Shown here: one piece after another, positions 42,440 through 51,754 of the stretch
How positions within the stretch are numbered: position 1 is the first letter of the stretch
How the letters are laid out: each line of letters begins with the position of its first letter
NCBI RefSeq assembly: GCF_016906995.1
Contig: NZ_JAFBBD010000003.1
Coordinates: 186,001-250,000, forward strand
Direction of reading: 5' to 3'
Source of the DNA: Spongiibacter marinus
GTDB lineage: Bacteria; Pseudomonadota; Gammaproteobacteria; Pseudomonadales; Spongiibacteraceae
DNA length: 64,000 nucleotides
Position numbers and translations under genes: made by a program
Notes under the pieces: model-generated
What the model saw: only the letters and a program-made list of their open reading frames with translations
Databases searched by the model: none
Told to the model about the DNA's origin: nothing

Positions 42440-44401
42440 TTAGCTGCCAGAGGGAGCTTGCTGCGTGGTCACCCACACAGGCGAGCTCCATGCTCGCTCT
42501 TGTATTTGACGTCGGTGATCATCACGGCAGCAGCTTTCATAGCCGGGTGAAATGGTGTCCGGCTGGCTGCAGTCTACTTCGGCCGCCACGCACAGCTGCT
42601 GACTCCACCGGCAACGGGGCACTTCGACGGCGCGAGCGTAGTAGTAATGGCGCGCCTCTGGGTCGAAATCCGGATCCTGCCATACCGAGCACAGCTGTGC
42701 GGCGCCACTACCCTGCGTTTGGCAGCTGTTTATGTCTACTGTCGCCGGTTTTCCCGAGCTGGCAATATCAATCACTGTTTCTGAGCGCTGCCCCGCGCTA
42801 TCAACACTGCCTTTTACAATCTGTAGAGTTTGCAGCGGTAAGCCAGGCCGCTTCGCTGTGCCGGGGTCCATTGCGGCCATCACCGCAATACGGGGGGCCG
42901 ATGATGAATTAAGCTGGAGCTCCCCTCCCATGGGAACGCCGATTTCATAACCCACTTTGGCAAAATCCGTGCGCTCACATAAATCGCTGGGGAGCTCCTC
43001 GCCCGCAAAAACTCTCAGGGCGATACGCGGACCACTGGTCGCATAGACCTCGCGCCTTAGCAAGGCATCGAATATGGCGTCGCGACTATTCTCTTCTGCC
43101 CATACCGCCGCAAGACCACCCGGATTAAACTCGATATCATCGGGCAATCCCGGCGGCACACTTTCACCCGCTGGCATACCAGCCCCACCATGCCCTAGGA
43201 ATTCTTCCTCACTCACCGCTCCAGGCGCAGAAATGTGGGTGTCGCTGCTGGCGATAAAGCCAAAAGCCAGTGGATTGAGCCCCGAGTCGCTGGAGTTGGC
43301 GTACGCCAGGCCATCGCGCAATACCTCGCGCAAAAAACCGGATTTTGGCCCTGCCGGTTCACTCAACGAAGGGGAAAGCTTGCCGAGAAACTTACTGCGA
43401 AAGCTGCCATAAGGTAATTGTTCGAAGCCGCACAGCTCATCCTCAGATTGCAGCGGATCGTAGTAGCACTCGGAACTGCCCTTGTGCTGCATAATTTCTA
43501 CAACGCGCTCTAAACGCGCTCTCTGCGCCTCTCTACTTGGGTCGTTATTTCCCTCTTCGTTCAAGGCAAACATATAGCCATCACTCAAATTACTATTGTG
43601 AGGAATCACCAGCACTTCACAGTTTTTAAGGGCGCTCGCTTTGCCACATTGCGCATCGAGCCCATCCCACAGTTGTGGGGCACTGGGGGCATCGATAAAG
43701 GAAACCGGCAACGCTGGCACACTGGCATTGCGAAAAATAATATTGCGATGGAGGTTGGCGAGATTCTCGGCCGCCCCCGTCCACTCATAGGCCACGAAAG
43801 AGGTAAATTCACAGTCATCACTGCGGTCGTAAGCCACTTCAGCTGAGGTTTGAATGTCTTGCCAGGGGCGCAAGGCCGCCTGTCGACAGTATTCGCCATC
43901 TTCACCACAAAAGCCTAAGCGACCGGCCATGGCCGCTTTGGTATTGAACAGAAAAAATGCCCCGCGAGGCCAACCGCGATACAAACGACATTGCCAACTG
44001 CCATAGCCGCGTTGTGATGGGTCCAAGCAAATATCGCGCTCGCCAAATAACTCGGCGTGATCTGTCACCGCCGCGAAGTCCAGAGGTCTCTCTAGCTGCA
44101 ACTCCCTCAACGCCTCGCCATCGGGGAGCCAGGGCTGAACGGGTAGACGGCCACCTTTTGCAAAACGGTAGGCATCGGCGGGAGAGGTTCGAGTACCTTG
44201 AGTACTTGCATCCAGGGAGTACTTGGTGTGTACGTGCAGATCACCAAAAAGTAACTGCCGTTCGGGCTGCCAGTTTTTGCAGCGGGGCTTTGTAACCTGA
44301 TTCGTGGTGGAGGTGTCCAGGTTTGCAATCGGCTGGGTATAGCCCTGTTGACACAGCATGAGAGCACAAACACTCAAAGCGGCAACTATTATTCTTTTCA
44401 T
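42440..44401 (-). CDS. Secreted DUF3604 family protein
   Basis: 653-residue exported protein with a signal peptide (MKRIIVAALSVCALMLCQQGYTQ). The DUF3604 hallmark FGDLHVHTKYSLDA, then DFAAVTDHAELFGE, ILVIPHNSNLSDGYMF-like HNSNLSDG, and GFIASSDTHISAPG form a PHP-like metal site (HVH, DH, H, DTH), so a phosphoesterase-type hydrolase is plausible. About ten cysteines in the C-terminal half suggest disulfides. Two upstream in-frame methionines (44410, 44464) exist; 44401 starts a good signal peptide with GGA nine or more bases upstream. Substrate unknown. Confidence 0.82.
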   Translation of the reverse strand: MKRIIVAALSVCALMLCQQGYTQPIANLDTSTTNQVTKPRCKNWQPERQLLFGDLHVHTKYSLDASTQGTRTSPADAYRFAKGGRLPVQPWLPDGEALRELQLERPLDFAAVTDHAELFGERDICLDPSQRGYGSWQCRLYRGWPRGAFFLFNTKAAMAGRLGFCGEDGEYCRQAALRPWQDIQTSAEVAYDRSDDCEFTSFVAYEWTGAAENLANLHRNIIFRNASVPALPVSFIDAPSAPQLWDGLDAQCGKASALKNCEVLVIPHNSNLSDGYMFALNEEGNNDPSREAQRARLERVVEIMQHKGSSECYYDPLQSEDELCGFEQLPYGSFRSKFLGKLSPSLSEPAGPKSGFLREVLRDGLAYANSSDSGLNPLAFGFIASSDTHISAPGAVSEEEFLGHGGAGMPAGESVPPGLPDDIEFNPGGLAAVWAEENSRDAIFDALLRREVYATSGPRIALRVFAGEELPSDLCERTDFAKVGYEIGVPMGGELQLNSSSAPRIAVMAAMDPGTAKRPGLPLQTLQIVKGSVDSAGQRSETVIDIASSGKPATVDINSCQTQGSGAAQLCSVWQDPDFDPEARHYYYARAVEVPRCRWSQQLCVAAEVDCSQPDTISPGYESCCRDDHRRQIQERAWSSPVWVTTQQAPSGS

Positions 44402-44553
44402 ATTAGCCATTCCGGGTGGTAAATGACCATTTTGCGCCAACAGCCGATGGGCTACATCCTCCATCCGGCCTAGCCAACTGCCTTAAGTGCAGCGAGGTGT
44501 GGACCGGCTGGAGGCCTTTGGGCCTAGATCAGCCGACTGATTGTTGTGCTAAC

Positions 44554-45365: not shown

Positions 45366-45689
45366 ATGAATTTTCGACATAGTTTTAAAACCCTTGCCGC
45401 AATCGTTTTCGGCATGCTTATTTCAATAAACAGCTACAGTAGCGGTTTGCTGGAAAAAGGCATTAATAACGGCCGAGGGGCACTAGGTGTTTCGCCACGC
45501 AACGCCTTGGACCCGCGACGAAATCAGCCACTGATTAGCGCGAGTGAGGCGATCTCAATTGCTGAACGGCGCTACGGCGGCCGCGCCGTCGGCGCTAAAA
45601 AAATTCAAACCGTTAACGGCAGTGCCTACCGCGTGCGCATATTGCAAAAAAATGGCAAGGTCAAAAACGTCATCATCGATCAAAGGTAG
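45366..45689 (+). CDS. PepSY-domain exported protein
   Basis: 107-residue exported protein with signal peptide (LAAIVFGMLISINSYS). The mature part has a single PepSY-like unit: LISASEAISIAERRYGGRAVGAKKIQTVNGSAYRVRILQKNGKVKNVIID. It stands 5 bases before the response-regulator gene, an arrangement common for PhoPQ-type systems, where the PepSY protein may sense or buffer the envelope signal. The promoter must lie in 45178-45365, where I see no certain operator. Confidence 0.85.
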   Translation: MNFRHSFKTLAAIVFGMLISINSYSSGLLEKGINNGRGALGVSPRNALDPRRNQPLISASEAISIAERRYGGRAVGAKKIQTVNGSAYRVRILQKNGKVKNVIIDQR

Positions 45690-45694
45690 CTCAG

Positions 45695-46381
45695 GTGCGT
45701 GTATTAATCGTTGAAGACGAGTCTCTGTTGCAAGCCCAGCTTGTCGAGCAATTCACGGCAGCGGGCTTTGCCTGCGACGCCTGCAGTGACGGAGAAGAAG
45801 CCCTGTTCCTAGGAAGGGAGCACCCCTACGACCTTGCCATCGTTGATATAGGCCTACCCAAGTTAGACGGCATTAGCGTCGTCGGGCACTGGCGTGAAGA
45901 TGCCAGAGACTTTCCTGTACTCATTTTAACAGCGAGAGACAGCTGGCAAGACAAAGTAAAGGGCCTAGAATCCGGCGCAGATGACTACGTTGCCAAGCCT
46001 TTTCAGATCGAGGAGGTATTGGCGCGCGCAAATGCCTTGATTCGGCGCTCAGCCGGGTTTGCCAGCCCGCGCATTAGTTTTGGTGCACTACAAATTGATA
46101 CCGCTGCCAAATCGGCGACCGTCGCCGGACGTAAACTAGAGCTCACCACCTTTGAGTACAATGCGCTGGAATACCTGGCAATGCGCAGCGGGCAAGTCGT
46201 CTCTAAAACGGAGCTCACAGAGCACCTGTATGATCAAGACTTTGATCGCGACAGCAACGTTATAGAGGTCTTTATCGCCAGACTGCGAAAGAAAATTGAC
46301 CCAACCGGCGAGCTCAAGCCCATCAGCACGCTTCGTGGCCGCGGTTATCGCTTCGAACTGGGAGAGGACTCGCAACAATAA
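45695..46381 (+). CDS. OmpR/PhoB-family response regulator (PhoP-like)
   Basis: 228-residue regulator. Receiver domain (1-115) has the acidic pocket ED, phospho-acceptor Asp51 and Lys101 in DDYVAKPF. The C-terminal winged helix (about 125-225) has LTTFEYNALEYLAMRSGQVVSKTELTEHLYDQDFDRDSNVIEVFIARLRKKI and TLRGRGYRF. GTG start. Its last codon overlaps the kinase start. Similar to PhoP/QseB-type regulators. Confidence 0.93.
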   Translation: MRVLIVEDESLLQAQLVEQFTAAGFACDACSDGEEALFLGREHPYDLAIVDIGLPKLDGISVVGHWREDARDFPVLILTARDSWQDKVKGLESGADDYVAKPFQIEEVLARANALIRRSAGFASPRISFGALQIDTAAKSATVAGRKLELTTFEYNALEYLAMRSGQVVSKTELTEHLYDQDFDRDSNVIEVFIARLRKKIDPTGELKPISTLRGRGYRFELGEDSQQ

Positions 46382-47727
46382 TGGCGACGCGCCGCTCCTC
46401 AATTAGCCGTCGGCTCATCATCTCGATGATCATTGCTATGCCCCTGCTACTGGGTTTGACCGCCGCTGCTATTGACCGCGCTTATCTGAGTAGTTTGCTG
46501 AAAGCCGAGGAAAACCGACTCCAAGCCCAATTCTTTTCTCTATTGGGAGCCGTTGAGTGGAATGAAGAAGATGGCTTTCGCACTGATGATCGGCTCAAGG
46601 AGCCTGATTTCTGGCAATTTCGCTCCGGGCTTTACGCGGACATACAATCTCCCGACGGTAAGCAGCTGTGGCGATCGCTAAGCGCCGATACCTTGTCGCT
46701 ACCCAACAACTTCGAAATATCACGGCCTGGCGAAGCCCTTACCGGCGAAACGCTCATCGACCAAAAACCCTTCCTCTATTACCGCTACCGCGCCCTGTGG
46801 GAAACAGAGGAAAATGAGGATCTGGCGATTGTTTTTTCTCTGTACTCGGAAAAAACAAATCTCATTCGAGAGCAGCGGCAATTCCGCCGGCAGATGGCGA
46901 TATGGATGACCATCGTTGCTTTTCTTTCTGTGCTGTTGATATCCGTCATCCAATACTGGGGCTTAAAACCATTACGCAGACTGGCGAAAGAACTGCGTTT
47001 ACTGGAGAAAGGCCAGGCCGAGCGGCTCGGCGATAACTACCCCAGTGAACTGGCCGCTATCACCAGCAACCTCAATCAACTGATCGAAAAAGAGCGCCGG
47101 CAGCGCGAGCGCTATCGCAATACCCTGGGGGACCTCGCGCACAGTTTGAAAACCCCACTTGCGGTACTAAAAAGTGGCCAGCTAGACGACACTCAGCGTA
47201 ACGAACAAATCGAGAGAATGGATAATATTGTTCGCTACCAGCTGCGCAGGGCCGTCAGTAGCGGCCAGCAGCAACTGCACACCAAAACGCAGATTAAACC
47301 CTTAGTGGATAGGCTTATTCACACCCTGCAAAAGGTTTACCACACCAAGTCATTTACTGCCGAGGTCGCGCTCAACGACCAAACAACCGCGCCCGTAGAC
47401 GAGCAGGATTTAATGGAATTACTTGGCAATCTGCTCGATAACGCCTGTAAGGCCTGTCATGCACGGGTATGTGTTTATGCCGAGCTGATGGTAAACGGCG
47501 CTGTCGCACTGTTTATTGAAAATGACGGCAAGGGCCTAGAACAAGAAGACATCGATAGTATGATGATTCGCGGCAAACGCGGTGATCAATATGGTGACGG
47601 CCAGGGCCTGGGGCTGGCCATAGTGCGAGACATTGCCGACAGCTGTGGCATCGAGCTACGTTTTGCCGCGCGCGAGCAAGGCGGCAGTGTTGTCACCCTG
47701 CTCTTCCCGTCACCGTCTAATAGCTGA
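46381..47727 (+). CDS. Sensor histidine kinase (PhoQ-like)
   Basis: 448-residue membrane kinase. Helices at about 11-30 and 172-192 flank a periplasmic sensor domain of about 140 residues containing several acidic residues (NEEDGFRTDDRLKEPDFW). The HAMP-like segment follows; the phospho-His is His254 in LGDLAHSLKTPLAVL, the N box is ELLGNLLDNACKACHA, and the G box GDGQGLGLAIV. PhoQ-type HATPase. The end overlaps the convergent TpsB-like gene by 11 bases. Cation or envelope signal is inferred only from family. Confidence 0.9.
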   Translation: MATRRSSISRRLIISMIIAMPLLLGLTAAAIDRAYLSSLLKAEENRLQAQFFSLLGAVEWNEEDGFRTDDRLKEPDFWQFRSGLYADIQSPDGKQLWRSLSADTLSLPNNFEISRPGEALTGETLIDQKPFLYYRYRALWETEENEDLAIVFSLYSEKTNLIREQRQFRRQMAIWMTIVAFLSVLLISVIQYWGLKPLRRLAKELRLLEKGQAERLGDNYPSELAAITSNLNQLIEKERRQRERYRNTLGDLAHSLKTPLAVLKSGQLDDTQRNEQIERMDNIVRYQLRRAVSSGQQQLHTKTQIKPLVDRLIHTLQKVYHTKSFTAEVALNDQTTAPVDEQDLMELLGNLLDNACKACHARVCVYAELMVNGAVALFIENDGKGLEQEDIDSMMIRGKRGDQYGDGQGLGLAIVRDIADSCGIELRFAAREQGGSVVTLLFPSPSNS

Positions 47728-49420
47728 CTTTAAGCCGCCAGAAGAAGTCGACCTCGGCAGCATCGAGTAAGCTCTGATTGATATTTTCATCATCGATCGG
47801 GTGGGCCACCACAAACTCGCTGCTCAAATAGTCCTTATAGCTAGCTTTTAAGGCGAAGCCTGCGTCGCTAATCATTCTTGTGTCACCGGCATCACCGCGT
47901 GCATCTTCGTACCAGACCCAACCTTGCTCGATGAACACAGACGGCTTTATTTCCAAGCCCATGAAAGGCAGTGGGTTAGATTCAAAGCTCAACTTCGCAT
48001 AGTGGCCCGAATCACCAACCAGCACCCCTGGAAGGTAGGCCGCTAAACCGTTGCTACCTCCCAAATAGTATTGCTGCTGTAGCGGTAATTGGCTGCCATC
48101 GGAGTACTGGCCTGTGAAACTCGCCGTTAGATTCGCCCAATCAACCACGGCGGATTGCAGCGAGAAACGGGGCTTAAAGATAGTAAACTCACTTGTTCTT
48201 CTGCCGATGAACACCACGCCTTGACGGTCGTCTGTGGCGAAGGTGCCGCTGTCTGACTTCAAGCCGAAATCGATGAATGCCTGCGCTGTTAACCGGCTAG
48301 GAAAGCCTGCTAAACGCAATAAGCGGTTAAACTTAAGCCCCAACTCAAGGTTGGTTTGGGGCTCGTCCAACAGTGCCCCACCGCCGCGCAGATCAATAGT
48401 GGAATCGATGTATTCCACGCGTTCGGTGAGCGTCAAGCGGTAAAGGCTATCGCTCATCAAAACCTGCTCGCCGGTAAGCGCTGCGGATTGCGTGCGATGC
48501 TCTAAGTACACCTCTTCAGACGTTGTTGTGGTGCCGCCACCGCCAATGTTTATCGACGTGCCTGTACCACCGAGTAGCGCGCACAACAGCGCAATGTCAC
48601 ACGTACCCAGACTGAGCAAAGGGTCATTTGCGGTAGTCACCAAGGCGTCAGCAAAGCGCGCATACTCGACATGGCGCGCTTCGATGCCATAAAGCCCCCA
48701 TTGGCTCGGGTAGTTCAGCCGAAACGTATAGCCATCGTAGTAATCACCACCATTGACCTCTCCGAGCTCCGTAAGTGCTAGGTCGTACACAAACTGTAAA
48801 TGGAGGCCATTGGTGAAATCATGTTTAGCCGAGACACCACCGAAATAGCGCCCTAAAAAACGATTGCCATAATTGTTAGCGGAAAGGCTTAACACCGTCG
48901 CATCATGGTCAGCTTTTTCACGCTCGCTGAATACCATGGTTAAGGCATTGGGGTCCCCGGAGACCTGATAGCTTATGCCATAGTCGAGACCTGCGCGGTC
49001 ACTTTTTAAATTCGCTAACACGCGCTTTGTATCGAATTCACTGCGAAGAAGGTCGCTATCGCCAATCAAGGATGAAAAATGCTCTTTGATCCCCTCCGGC
49101 GCTTTTATATCGGCCAACGTGCCGTTGATAACATGGACAAAAATTGTCTCGTCGCGCTGGGCGAAATAGATCGTCGTTAACAGGTGTCCCAGGTGATGGT
49201 ATGACTGGTTTAGCGCATTGACCGCCTGAGCCGGCGTTTTCGCCGCCGCCATCAGCATATCCAATTGCTCTTTGCTAAGGTGACGATTCCCAGTTATCCG
49301 CAGCGTATAGCCCGCCACCTCTGCCTCGTACACCGCGTCTTCACGTGCAGAACTGTACTGCACGATCCGCTCAGCAGTAGACGCTTGGGGAGGAATGACT
49401 GGGGGTAAATCAATTGCCAT
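47717..49420 (-). CDS. TpsB/FhaC-like outer-membrane transporter lacking a signal peptide
   Basis: 567-residue protein of the ShlB/FhaC/HecB (two-partner secretion, Omp85) type. A POTRA-like region (YEAEVAGYTLRITGNRHLSKEQLDMLMAAAKTPAQAVNALNQSYHHLGHLLTTIYFAQRDETIFVHVINGTL) is followed by a 16-strand-barrel-like part with GLYGIEARHVEYAR, QLPLQQQYYLGGSNGLAAYLPG and a C-terminal ...WRLKVSY. Unusually no hydrophobic signal sequence precedes the proline-rich start MAIDLPPVIPPQ. An in-frame TAA lies four codons upstream and AAGGAC precedes the ATG, so an N-terminal extension is excluded. It is 16 bases downstream of the OmpA-like gene. Cargo is likely the repeat protein encoded upstream. Confidence 0.82.
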   Translation of the reverse strand: MAIDLPPVIPPQASTAERIVQYSSAREDAVYEAEVAGYTLRITGNRHLSKEQLDMLMAAAKTPAQAVNALNQSYHHLGHLLTTIYFAQRDETIFVHVINGTLADIKAPEGIKEHFSSLIGDSDLLRSEFDTKRVLANLKSDRAGLDYGISYQVSGDPNALTMVFSEREKADHDATVLSLSANNYGNRFLGRYFGGVSAKHDFTNGLHLQFVYDLALTELGEVNGGDYYDGYTFRLNYPSQWGLYGIEARHVEYARFADALVTTANDPLLSLGTCDIALLCALLGGTGTSINIGGGGTTTTSEEVYLEHRTQSAALTGEQVLMSDSLYRLTLTERVEYIDSTIDLRGGGALLDEPQTNLELGLKFNRLLRLAGFPSRLTAQAFIDFGLKSDSGTFATDDRQGVVFIGRRTSEFTIFKPRFSLQSAVVDWANLTASFTGQYSDGSQLPLQQQYYLGGSNGLAAYLPGVLVGDSGHYAKLSFESNPLPFMGLEIKPSVFIEQGWVWYEDARGDAGDTRMISDAGFALKASYKDYLSSEFVVAHPIDDENINQSLLDAAEVDFFWRLKVSY

Positions 49421-49436
49421 ACAAAGTCCTTAACCT

Positions 49437-50429
49437 TTAGCGAGCATCAGATTCGACGCTGTTCTTTGCCGCTCGCATCTCGACACGTCTATTCTCTGCG
49501 CGAGCCTGGGCCAAGTCACGTCCGCTCAAACCCTCAACACTTACCTTTGGCTGTCTTTCACCGAAGCCAACTGCCTGCAAACGCTGCACCTCAACACCCT
49601 CGGCAGCGAGAAAACGTACCACGGCCTGAGCACGCTCTAAAGACAGGCGCATATTATAATCATCATCACCGAGGTCGTCGGTGTGGCCGACAACCTCAAT
49701 TTCAATTTTCTTAAAGCGCTGTGAATTCAGGATATTGGCGGCCTGCCTGAGGGTAGCCGCAGAAGAAGCGTCGAGCAAAGCGGTATCACTGGCAAAGCTC
49801 ACCCCGACGAGACGCAGCGTACGCCCGGCTTCGAAATGGCAACCCGAGGGCAATACAATCGCCTCAGCAGGCGAGTTTGGGCAGAGATCTACTTCGTCAC
49901 ATACACTGTCGCGATCCGCATCACGGCACTGCGCCGCAGCAGCGGACCGCGCTAAGGGCTTTTTTGCGCGATTACCATCAACCCTCGCCCCCTCGTCACT
50001 CGCTTGCGTGTCGTCGGAAAGCTCTATGGTAAGCACTTCAGGAATAATGTCGCCGTCTCCGGCTGTGTCTTGCAGGAATTCAATAACCGAGCTCTCACCG
50101 CCCAAATTATCGAGTAAGGGTGCTAAAGCGTTCCCCCCTCCCTCAACTTCAAGAGGAGACGCTGGCGCTCCTAGCAAAAGGATGTCTTGCCCGGCGATTC
50201 CGGCCCCTAACACCGCATCGTCGCTCAAAACATCTAGCGACAACACCGAAATATCATCTTCACCGCTACCGGCTCCTGGCACGGTAACATCCACCCCGAT
50301 ACCCAGTACATCGACCGAAATCAACTGTGCCTGCGCAATCGGCGCTGCCATGAGCAAGCCGATAAGGAAGGATTGTATAAATGCCCGAAAATTCAAGTGT
50401 CGATGCCTATCTGCCGGAACATGACCCAA
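49437..50429 (-). CDS. OmpA-family protein with TSP3-like motif and repeat-like N-terminal region
   Basis: 330-residue exported protein, signal peptide cleaved near AQA-Q (34/35). The N-terminal half is Gly/Asp/Leu-rich and holds GGGNALAPLLDNLGG (about 97-111), like the repeat of the neighbouring gene. A thrombospondin-3-like calcium motif CRDADRDSVCDEVDLCPNSP follows, then a peptidoglycan-binding OmpA domain (about 205-325) with EIEVVGHTDDLGDDDYNMRLSLERAQAVVRFL and FGERQP. Second gene of a three-gene unit. Probably anchors the exported partner to the cell wall. The first residues before RAFIQSFLIGLL may not all be translated. Confidence 0.85.
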   Translation of the reverse strand: MGHVPADRHRHLNFRAFIQSFLIGLLMAAPIAQAQLISVDVLGIGVDVTVPGAGSGEDDISVLSLDVLSDDAVLGAGIAGQDILLLGAPASPLEVEGGGNALAPLLDNLGGESSVIEFLQDTAGDGDIIPEVLTIELSDDTQASDEGARVDGNRAKKPLARSAAAAQCRDADRDSVCDEVDLCPNSPAEAIVLPSGCHFEAGRTLRLVGVSFASDTALLDASSAATLRQAANILNSQRFKKIEIEVVGHTDDLGDDDYNMRLSLERAQAVVRFLAAEGVEVQRLQAVGFGERQPKVSVEGLSGRDLAQARAENRRVEMRAAKNSVESDAR

Positions 50430-50476
50430 ATTTATATTATGCGTTATTGTGATATAGCTAGCTGAAACTTGAAAGT

Positions 50477-50506
50477 AAAAAAGCCGGCTCCCTAAGGAAA
50501 CCGGCT
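50477..50506 (-). terminator. Intrinsic terminator between the repeat-protein and OmpA-like genes
   Basis: AGCCGG/CCGGCT outer stem (50482-50487, 50501-50506) with an inner TCC/GGA pairing; on the minus strand it is followed by six T (A-tract 50477-50482). It lies between gene 1 (ending 50533) and gene 2 (starting 50429), so it should lower read-through into the OmpA-like and transporter genes. Confidence 0.82.
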
Positions 50507-50532
50507 CTACTATATCAGGTCAACACGCCTCG

Positions 50533-51384
50533 TTAAGGTGTTGGCAATTCAAATACCGGTTCTTGGCCGTCAAACCCGAATGAAAAGCTGAAAGCCGCTG
50601 ACTCGAAAGAAAACGCTAGTGAAAGTGGCAATGCACTGGGCTCAGAGTCGCTATCACCGCCCTCAGATGGCGCGGGAATAGGCAGTACATCTAATACTGG
50701 CTGAAGAGGGTTATCACTTTCACCGCCCTCACCGCCAGCTGCGGCGCTCTCAAATTGATCAACAAGGGGCTGCAGCGGGTTGTCGCCCTCTCCACCACCC
50801 TGAAGCTGATCAAGCAGAGGCTGAAGCGGGTTGTCACCACCGTCACTGCCGCCCTCCGGCGCAAACCCCATCAAGTTCTCTTGCAGATGTGCAAACAGCA
50901 CTTCCAGTGTCGGTGGAATGGCTTCCACACTCGCTTGAACGGCGGTTGGGTCGGTTGCCAGGGTATCGACGACATCAGTCACTGCGTCTACGGTTCCGTC
51001 CTCGCCCGCCAAGTCATTGGCCAAGTCGTCAACCGTCTTCGTCAGCTGCAATGCGTATGGCGCAAGAGGGTTTTCACCACCGCCCTGAAGCTGGTCCAAA
51101 ATGGGCTGCAAGGGGTTGTCACCGCCACTACCGCCGCCCTGCAATTGATCCAGGATCGGCTGCAGAGGATTATCGCCACCACCATCGAGCGCTGAGAGCT
51201 GAGAATCGATTTCGTTTAACGGCGCGATGATTGCGTCGAGCGGCGTTCCCGCCAAGCCTTCAGCAAGCGGTTCGATAATTGGCGCCAAAGGGCCGGCACT
51301 TGAGAGTGATGATGCAGCCGTGATGGCTGCCGCTAATGACAATTGTTTCATTGATAAAGTTTTCACAGCATGTCCTCCAGACAT
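50533..51384 (-). CDS. Secreted low-complexity protein with DNPLQP repeats
   Basis: 283-residue exported protein; signal peptide MKQLSLAAAITAASSLSSA begins at Met12. The mature part contains DNPLQP-x-LDQLQGGG units near residues 71, 89, 184, 201 and 224, with a degenerate ENPLAP copy at 104, separated by Gly-rich linkers. A helical insert (about 113-172, TKTVDDLANDLAGEDGTVDAVTDVVDTLATD) splits them. The C-terminus alternates Phe and Ser (LAFSFESAAFSFSFGF), a beta-strand pattern. There is no TPS domain, no cysteine and very few basic residues. I do not recognise the family. Context suggests a cell-surface protein exported with the TpsB-like and OmpA-like partners. Confidence 0.78.
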   Translation of the reverse strand: MSGGHAVKTLSMKQLSLAAAITAASSLSSAGPLAPIIEPLAEGLAGTPLDAIIAPLNEIDSQLSALDGGGDNPLQPILDQLQGGGSGGDNPLQPILDQLQGGGENPLAPYALQLTKTVDDLANDLAGEDGTVDAVTDVVDTLATDPTAVQASVEAIPPTLEVLFAHLQENLMGFAPEGGSDGGDNPLQPLLDQLQGGGEGDNPLQPLVDQFESAAAGGEGGESDNPLQPVLDVLPIPAPSEGGDSDSEPSALPLSLAFSFESAAFSFSFGFDGQEPVFELPTP

Positions 51385-51677
51385 TTTTTGTTTTTCCGCG
51401 AACAGAATCTACGTTCTGCTTTATTTGTGTTATAGGCGGATAATACGCGTTTATACCTATTGATTATAGTGATTCAAATCACAAAAGCCTGCGTTATGTG
51501 AAAAGCGGCTGACTGGAGGTGGCAACTTGCTTGAATGGCGTATTGAATCAGTCAGTTACTGACCGAGTATATGCAGGATAAGGGGCGTCGTTAGAACAGC
51601 ATGCTATGCAGCAAGCCGGATTAAATAAAATAACAGTCTAAAAATGAAAAAGGGCCGCTAAAGCGGCCCTTTAAATA
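51385..51677 (-). promoter_or_regulatory. CRP/Vfr-type promoter of the repeat-protein cluster
   Basis: The AT-rich gap of about 290 bases upstream of the repeat-protein gene contains AGTGA-N6-TCACA at 51468-51483, a near-consensus CRP site. On the minus strand a -10 hexamer TATTAT lies at 51445-51440. If transcription starts near 51434, the site is centred at -41.5, as in a class II CRP promoter. No good -35 is seen, consistent with activator dependence. The outer part (51500-51640) shows nothing else I can name. Confidence 0.6.
51649..51674 (-). terminator. Terminator after tRNA-Pro
   Basis: AAAGGGCCGC/GCGGCCCTTT inverted repeat with a four-base loop; on the minus strand it is followed by a run of T (with a C), and begins a few bases after the tRNA 3' end. 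Confidence 0.88.
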
Positions 51678-51754
51678 TGGTCGGAACGGCAGGATTCGAA
51701 CCTGCGACCCCCACACCCCCAGTGTGGTGCGCTACCAGACTGCGCTACGCCCCG
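51678..51754 (-). tRNA. tRNA-Pro (anticodon GGG)
   Basis: 77-nt cloverleaf. The acceptor stem CGGGGCG pairs with CGTTCCG (two G-U pairs), A73 is followed by an encoded CCA. D arm has TAGCGCAGTCTGGTAGCGCA. Anticodon stem CCACA/TGTGG encloses loop CTGGGGG with anticodon GGG, reading CCC. T arm has GGTTCGAATCC. It follows the merR-like gene on the same strand. Confidence 0.97.

Follow-up and report, generated by a model that had tools for sequence, protein, structure and literature searches.

The genes discussed here lie in a 64,000-nucleotide (nt) stretch of the Spongiibacter marinus genome (contig NZ_JAFBBD010000003.1, positions 186,001 to 250,000), which we call the window and in whose coordinates all positions are given. 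Three genes stand in tandem on its minus strand and encode, in the order of reading, an acidic exported protein of 283 amino acids (aa) with DNPLQP repeats (50533-51384), an OmpA-domain protein of 319 aa when counted from a TTG start (49437-50396; the listed open reading frame, ORF, begins at 50429), and a TpsB-like barrel of outer-membrane type with 567 aa and no signal peptide (47717-49420). The trio is bounded by a tRNA-Pro gene (51678-51754) and by a facing pair of response-regulator- and histidine-kinase-like genes (45695-47727, named by eye). An earlier note, made from the sequence alone, had claimed three real genes in tandem, and the ORF list, Pfam and a predicted fold bear this out. 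Our main concern is the barrel, which belongs to a family lacking signal peptides, and its pairing with the OmpA-domain protein.

By high-confidence structure prediction, the product of the third gene is a protein of the TpsB fold. At the sequence level, Pfam ShlB exceeds its cut-off only in the C-terminal part of the 567-aa protein (residues 376-508, E 3.4e-9), and a profile search of solved-structure sequences returned CdiB alone, at E 0.25, so that a fold search was needed. AlphaFold2, supplied with an alignment of 40 sequences, modelled the protein with a predicted local distance difference test score (pLDDT) of 90.2 and a predicted template modelling score (pTM) of 0.84, residues 1-20 being confident as well (91-92). 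Two POTRA-like units, followed by 16 barrel strands from residue 175 onward, can be counted by eye in the predicted secondary structure. The top Foldseek match of the model is CdiB (6wim; E 2.3e-22, template modelling scores 0.66/0.69); a second CdiB entry (6wil) and two FhaC entries occupy the next ranks, with BamA and TamA lower.

Barrels of the outer membrane are known to reach the periplasm by way of Sec, guided by a cleavable signal peptide. The window barrel has no room for one, because an in-frame TAA stop (49430-49432), overlapping the Shine-Dalgarno-like sequence AAGGA (49427-49431), ends 9 nt before the ATG; the stop of the OmpA-domain gene lies 16 nt from the same ATG. The place expected of a signal peptide is held by a conserved N-terminal peptide, MAIDLPPVIPP (49388-49420). 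That the transporter is signal-less, as first read from this one gene, applies equally to its relatives: a hydrophobic segment before or at the start of the protein was found in none of 121 copies, comprising 73 from Spongiibacteraceae, 46 from the order of Solimonas aquatica, which we take to be Nevskiales, and two (L148 and L150) from metagenome-assembled genomes (MAGs). Our measure, which considers hydropathy only, was the best mean Kyte-Doolittle value over 12 residues from the upstream stop to 30 residues after the start, with a threshold of 2.0. None of 106 family copies (101 with ATG, four with GTG and one with TTG as start codon) reached this value, the maximum being 1.81; within the first 40 residues of the proteins themselves, the maximum was 2.07. 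The threshold was reached by 20 of 25 canonical TpsB controls from the class scan; these were scored from the beginning of the open frame to residue 110, and the greater length examined works in their favour. In the five controls below 2.0, the open frame is either short (361, 465 aa) or long (631-651 aa), and the true start is perhaps elsewhere. For the Solimonas-order copies, 31 of which also belong to the 106-copy set, the interval began 45 residues ahead of the aligned start (or at the stop) and ended 30 residues after it, and 0/46 contained a hydrophobic segment.

The start of the protein is itself conserved. All 73 Spongiibacteraceae copies begin with an ATG and the residues M[AP]ID, and the in-frame stops ahead of them lie 0-33 codons upstream at varied places, touching the ATG in 11 copies; a Shine-Dalgarno-like sequence precedes most of these ATGs (by eye). 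The pattern M[APST][ILVM]x[LFMVI]P fits the N-terminus of 104 of the 106 copies, and the start motif stands at the expected place in 45 of the 46 Solimonas-order copies, the remaining one starting with GTG and having Gly as its second residue. The N-terminus of one Spongiibacteraceae copy, L103, is deviant and reads MAIDMLPAMQPV. Because the absence persists in a clade that extends beyond the window's order, and a conserved N-terminus takes the place of the signal peptide, neither a faulty annotation nor the decay of one gene explains the observation well. The missing signal peptide is no accident or quirk of one gene and, with the exception of one deep relative, is a property of the whole clade. 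We also considered whether the outer-membrane proteins of this genome have lost their signal peptides in general; this does not apply to the one that was checked, as the genome's own BamA-like Omp85 protein carries an ordinary signal peptide.

The barrel family is concentrated in marine bacteria of the Spongiibacteraceae. A search of 96 genomes matched 26, namely all 21 genomes of Spongiibacteraceae and five others with weak local matches only, and the 73 copies are spread over these 21 genomes at two to five per genome (one copy is in two pieces). A scan of named genomes located the family in the Spongiibacteraceae genera Zhongshania, Spongiibacter, Litorivivens, and Neomelitea, with a copy in Neomelitea salexigens that is 98% identical to the window barrel, as well as more distantly related proteins in Salinisphaeraceae, Hydrocarboniphaga, Solimonas, Frateuria, and several MAGs. 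Of 85 genomes from the Solimonas aquatica order, 41 carry the protein at E 1e-20, yielding the 46 matches mentioned above. Among other genomes of the class the family is rare, with full-length matches in 4/368 (E below 1e-70), two of which are, by match places and scores, the genomes of L148 and L150; among other genomes of the phylum, 1/397 matched at E 1e-20. Two stretches of viral contigs matched a pattern, and neither is a relative. A maximum-likelihood tree was calculated from a selection of 79 rows: the signal-less family, with its deep branches, contributes 56, L160 and L162 one each, and the canonical TpsB proteins 21, namely those of the 25 that satisfied a length filter. In this tree, a branch with 100/100 support splits the family together with L160 and L162 from the 21 canonical TpsB rows.

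The family also departs from canonical TpsB proteins at the lid lock. According to PMC4490367, TpsB proteins share the motifs (V/I)RG(Y/F) of loop L6 and (F/G)xDxG of strand 13, and residues R450-D492 of FhaC form a lid lock that is described as conserved in Omp85 translocases and insertases. In our canonical controls, the tip of L6 reads V/I-R-G/A-Y/F, as compared with mostly L-S-A-Y-L-P-G in the barrel family. The L6 arginine is present in 4/107 family rows (an alignment that counts the window protein twice) versus 25/25 controls, serine being found in 63 family rows, and the strand-13 position is Glu in 105/107 family rows versus Asp in 22/25 controls. The weak CdiB alignment obtained from the profile search pairs the same L6 residues. 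Because the arginine is gone in nearly all copies, the family lends itself as a natural experiment on the function of the Omp85 lid lock.

The second element of the system is the OmpA-domain protein. The window partner matches Pfam OmpA (E 1.1e-19); its C-terminal OmpA domain (PF00691; 49539-49796) carries the motif TDxxG..N..LS..RA..V, whose residues contact peptidoglycan in OmpA domains, and a Sec-type signal peptide is recognizable by eye behind the TTG start, which can be aligned in L036 and L047. An OmpA-domain gene stands directly upstream of the barrel gene, on the same strand and at less than 400 nt, in 72 of the 73 Spongiibacteraceae copies, and the peptidoglycan-contact motif is found in 64 of these 72 partners. 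Their open frames span 260 to 1652 aa; among the partners inspected, repeats separate the signal peptide from the OmpA domain in the long proteins but are missing from the short ones.

These repeats link the OmpA-domain partners to the exported neighbours of more distant barrels. A 16-residue repeat of the type GxxGxGVLNGDNSGN occurs in exported, OmpA-free barrel neighbours (L158, L233, L235, L237, L242, L244, and the MAG locus L150), and the same repeat can be seen by eye, between signal peptide and OmpA domain, in the OmpA-fused Zhongshania partners L053, L141, and their kin. As judged from the sequences, this fusion is the best evidence that the repeat protein and the OmpA domain act together with the barrel. 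The earlier note had further suggested that clusters of TpsB-like, OmpA-like, and Gly-rich repeat genes might exist elsewhere, and such clusters were indeed found, for example L150 in a gammaproteobacterial MAG. Neither of the window's two partners, nor any of nine exported proteins encoded beside distant copies, has a TPS (two-partner secretion) domain according to Pfam, which could have missed a very divergent one.

Other barrel neighbours are of different kinds. Short proteins without the 16-residue repeat adjoin L161 and L250, and an EF-hand protein adjoins L271, which makes this protein a different kind of candidate partner. Directly upstream of the L252, L255, and L271 barrels, which belong to one group, lies a gene for a small exported protein ending in FDALVASFE[DE]EMAE; the one scanned, that of L271, is the EF-hand protein. 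Exported neighbours of about 730 aa, found upstream of several window-type copies, were considered as long repeat proteins and dropped: those of L040 and L043 look like TonB-dependent receptors by eye, and those of L039, L041, L042, and L046 were assumed to be of the same type from their similar size and start. L097 and L074 represent a third paralogue type, which is also present in the window's genome and lies in a conserved cluster with genes for MFS-like, LysR-like, and 266-aa membrane-like proteins upstream (by eye).

We propose that the locus encodes a variant of two-partner secretion, that is, a surface-display pair in which the OmpA-domain protein would serve as both cargo and anchor, and we assign this reading a probability of roughly 50%. 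The OmpA-domain protein would be exported by Sec through its signal peptide and its C-terminal OmpA domain would bind peptidoglycan. The region ahead of this domain, a long repeat array in many paralogues, would be passed to the surface via the dedicated TpsB-like barrel, and one polypeptide would thereby be displayed and tethered together. From the anatomy of the protein, we consider it plausible that the N-terminal region of the partner is translocated and tethered by the OmpA domain in this way. The barrel, putatively located in the outer membrane, is synthesised without a signal peptide. As a more tentative suggestion, the whole barrel clade might cross the inner membrane without a signal peptide, using either the conserved M-A-I-D-L-P-P peptide or the mature domain as targeting element. 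The peptide might direct a non-canonical crossing of the inner membrane, or it might be a structural element that was retained once export had become signal-independent. The DNPLQP protein would be an exported accessory whose gene can disappear or change its place.

Several observations weigh against the proposed surface-display pair. In the window partner, the OmpA domain is preceded by a short region free of repeats. L103, from genome G014, is the sole Spongiibacteraceae copy without an OmpA neighbour (a 266-aa open frame with a signal-like start lies 112 nt upstream of it). In the Solimonas order, the OmpA anchor is not universal, because only 6/40 counted copies have an OmpA gene within 3.5 kilobases (kb); of the 46 copies, 40 were recovered by the gene caller, and 34 of the 40 have another neighbour with a predicted signal peptide, by a crude rule that admits chance ORFs. 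The predicted structure of the L141 partner counts in favour of the pair in placing one strand per 16 residues over residues 191-338 (pLDDT by block 60-84, except for 47 in the last block), but it is weak overall (51.5); with regard to the β-helix fold of a two-partner cargo, the 50 Foldseek matches listed for it include no solenoid and are all OmpA-type domains, aligned to its OmpA domain only. Since the lid-lock arginine of all 25 controls is missing, translocation may not necessarily proceed as in FhaC. Finally, L162, from a Methylacidiphilaceae MAG, does have a hydrophobic N-terminal segment (2.95) and groups with the deep branches L160, L166, L167, and L193, which are themselves without one (values from 0.84 to 1.47, with an uncertain start for L160). 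The signal-peptide label therefore needs two changes on the tree, so that, on present sequences, the signal peptide would have been lost more than once or regained, or L162 has been misjudged. L162 may be a witness of an ancestral signal peptide, and its contig may be misbinned. The deep branches also differ at their start, with MPVxVADVPP in L166 and L167 and MFAMSALPPP in L193.

Among the alternatives, the one that survives best, though we regard it as unlikely, is that the barrel translocates nothing and serves as a static scaffold, keeping the OmpA-domain protein, and through it peptidoglycan, at the outer membrane, with the N-terminal region of the partner staying in the periplasm. An altered lid-lock pair, with no L6 arginine in 103/107 rows and Glu for Asp at strand 13, is what such a scaffold might show, and the little repeat sequence in the window's partner fits it as well. 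However, the predicted POTRA-like units speak against a scaffold, as do partner open frames of up to 1652 aa with exported repeat arrays that resemble displayed proteins.

Somewhat less likely again is that the protein does not reside in the outer membrane and that a signal-less barrel acts in the cytoplasm or on an internal membrane in some other role. The signal peptide is missing from 121/121 copies, and we are aware of no pathway that would take a barrel without a signal peptide to the outer membrane. A C-terminal aromatic residue, as expected of a substrate of the β-barrel assembly machinery (BAM), is nevertheless retained in 99/106 family copies (versus 16/21 canonical TpsB proteins), the predicted POTRA and barrel fold is likewise retained, and the gene is closely paired with that of an exported OmpA-domain protein, all of which argue for the outer membrane.

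The earlier note had seen the 283-aa DNPLQP protein as the true cargo, with the OmpA protein as its anchor only, and we now find this improbable. The protein has a signal-peptide-like N-terminus, five DNPLQP units and one ENPLAP unit, a net charge of -40, and no Pfam match above cut-off. In favour of its being the cargo, the gene order is the same in some related genomes, a CRP-like site upstream of the gene is retained in three loci, and the MAG locus L150 holds an analogous trio. Its association with the barrel is loose, however. Relatives of the repeat protein occur in 16/29 genomes, comprising 16/18 of the window's genus and 0/11 others (repeats can inflate these scores), and lie within 3.5 kb of a barrel in only seven of the 16 (G000, G002, G007, G011, G012, G013, G014). 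In G009, the distance is about 4 kb, and in six genomes (G003, G005, G006, G008, G016, G017) the gene is in another neighbourhood. In G004 and G010 (L272 and L273), its neighbour is a gene for an exported, OmpA-like protein (by eye), beyond which comes a histidine kinase gene, with no barrel between; synteny with the window extends to both sides of L272 and to the histidine-kinase side only of L273, and each genome holds two barrel copies elsewhere. A conserved non-repeat core (residues 107-174; 50863-51066) was searched by tblastn against 117 loci (E up to 0.01) and matched L004, L035, L036, L041, L044, L045, L048, and L049; around this common core, the repeats vary among species (DNPLQP, LPGLDALP). 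Thus, given its loose association and its varying repeats, the DNPLQP protein is, from its distribution, probably an accessory and not the defining cargo, for which the OmpA-domain protein itself is the better candidate. Of the co-occurrence expected for all three genes, the OmpA/transporter pair holds together across genomes and the repeat protein is often apart, a finding that the earlier note itself would have counted in part against its trio.

The CRP-like palindrome TGTGATTTGAATCACT (51468-51483), about 84 nt ahead of the ATG of the repeat gene, is the sole match with one mismatch in the window; with up to three mismatches allowed, the window has 191 matches, compared with a chance mean of 190.6. 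A site with one mismatch is found upstream of the repeat gene in L035 (a nearly identical locus), L044, and L045, and sites with two and three mismatches are found in L049 and L273, respectively, these five loci making up the comparison. The gap between the repeat gene and the OmpA gene contains a terminator-like hairpin (50480-50508) of 13 base pairs followed by a T-run, in a region with seven terminator-like sites versus 4.4 expected. The intergenic fold at this hairpin has a z of -4.46, and 0/200 shuffled sequences were as stable, which suggests separate or attenuated transcription. The candidate CRP-type site put forward for a common promoter does stand at this place, but a single promoter for the trio is doubtful because the hairpin separates the repeat gene from the OmpA/barrel pair.

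The remaining alternative, a signal peptide hidden behind an upstream start, stop-codon read-through, or a frameshift, would square the fold with normal export but is rejected as highly improbable, given the scattered in-frame stops of the 73 copies, the short OmpA-barrel gap and the Shine-Dalgarno-like sequences described above, and given upstream frames with few hydrophobic segments, a 12-residue window within the 150 nt before the start reaching a mean of 2.0 in 0, 4, and 6 of the 106 copies, depending on the frame.

Some neighbouring genes deserve mention. Downstream of the barrel gene and convergent with it are genes for a small exported protein, a response regulator, and a histidine kinase (45366-47727; names by eye), and a similar regulator or kinase gene lies near the window-type locus in L036, L037, L044, L047, L048, L272, and L273. 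The regulator and kinase genes may control the locus. A 674-aa protein is encoded at 42440-44464, and a similar protein is encoded near the same locus in L036, L037, and L047.

Similar to the transporters of two-partner secretion (type Vb; FhaC, CdiB), the window barrel has predicted POTRA-like units followed by a barrel, with CdiB and FhaC as its top solved structures, and its gene adjoins that of an exported protein, which is often repeat-rich. In contrast to these systems, the window's family lacks a signal peptide and has a conserved MAIDLPP-like N-terminus, the VRG(Y/F) of L6 is mostly replaced by LSAYLPG, the scanned partners have no Pfam TPS domain, and the Spongiibacteraceae partner ends in an OmpA domain. 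The idea of a dedicated TpsB-like/OmpA-like unit unlike classic two-partner secretion, put forward from the window alone, has therefore held up across the copies. If the more tentative reading of a signal-independent crossing is correct, it would provide a second way of exporting a bacterial outer-membrane barrel, here in the service of peptidoglycan-tethered surface display and combined with a rewired lid lock of the Omp85 type. A simple design of wall-held surface proteins is likewise suggested by the pair, in which a repeat cargo is fused to an OmpA domain and supplied with a private transporter.

By fold, the window barrel belongs to the Omp85/TpsB superfamily, the subfamilies of which are surveyed in PMC4104836 (presumably Heinz and Lithgow, 2014); a term search of the main text of that paper gave no subfamily that is characterised by lack of a signal peptide or by pairing with OmpA. 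Likewise, titles and abstract openings among the open-licence PMC papers listed mention no signal-less TpsB protein and no OmpA-fused TPS cargo. From residue 166 or 163 onward, i.e. over the OmpA domain and the preceding stretch, the window partner resembles the PA1041-family peptidoglycan-binding anchor lipoprotein (NF053612) and the TraB outer-membrane exchange protein (NF033763), but it scores under the curated cut-off of each. A further parallel is TpgA, the partner of the trimeric autotransporter adhesin AtaA, which is likewise an OmpA-type periplasmic protein encoded together with a surface-protein system; the window partner matches the corresponding model (NF047726) at E 1.5e-9 and 37.5 bits, far under the cut-off of 350. 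TpgA serves a trimeric autotransporter, whereas the locus presented here pairs the OmpA domain with a TpsB barrel and fuses it to the candidate cargo.

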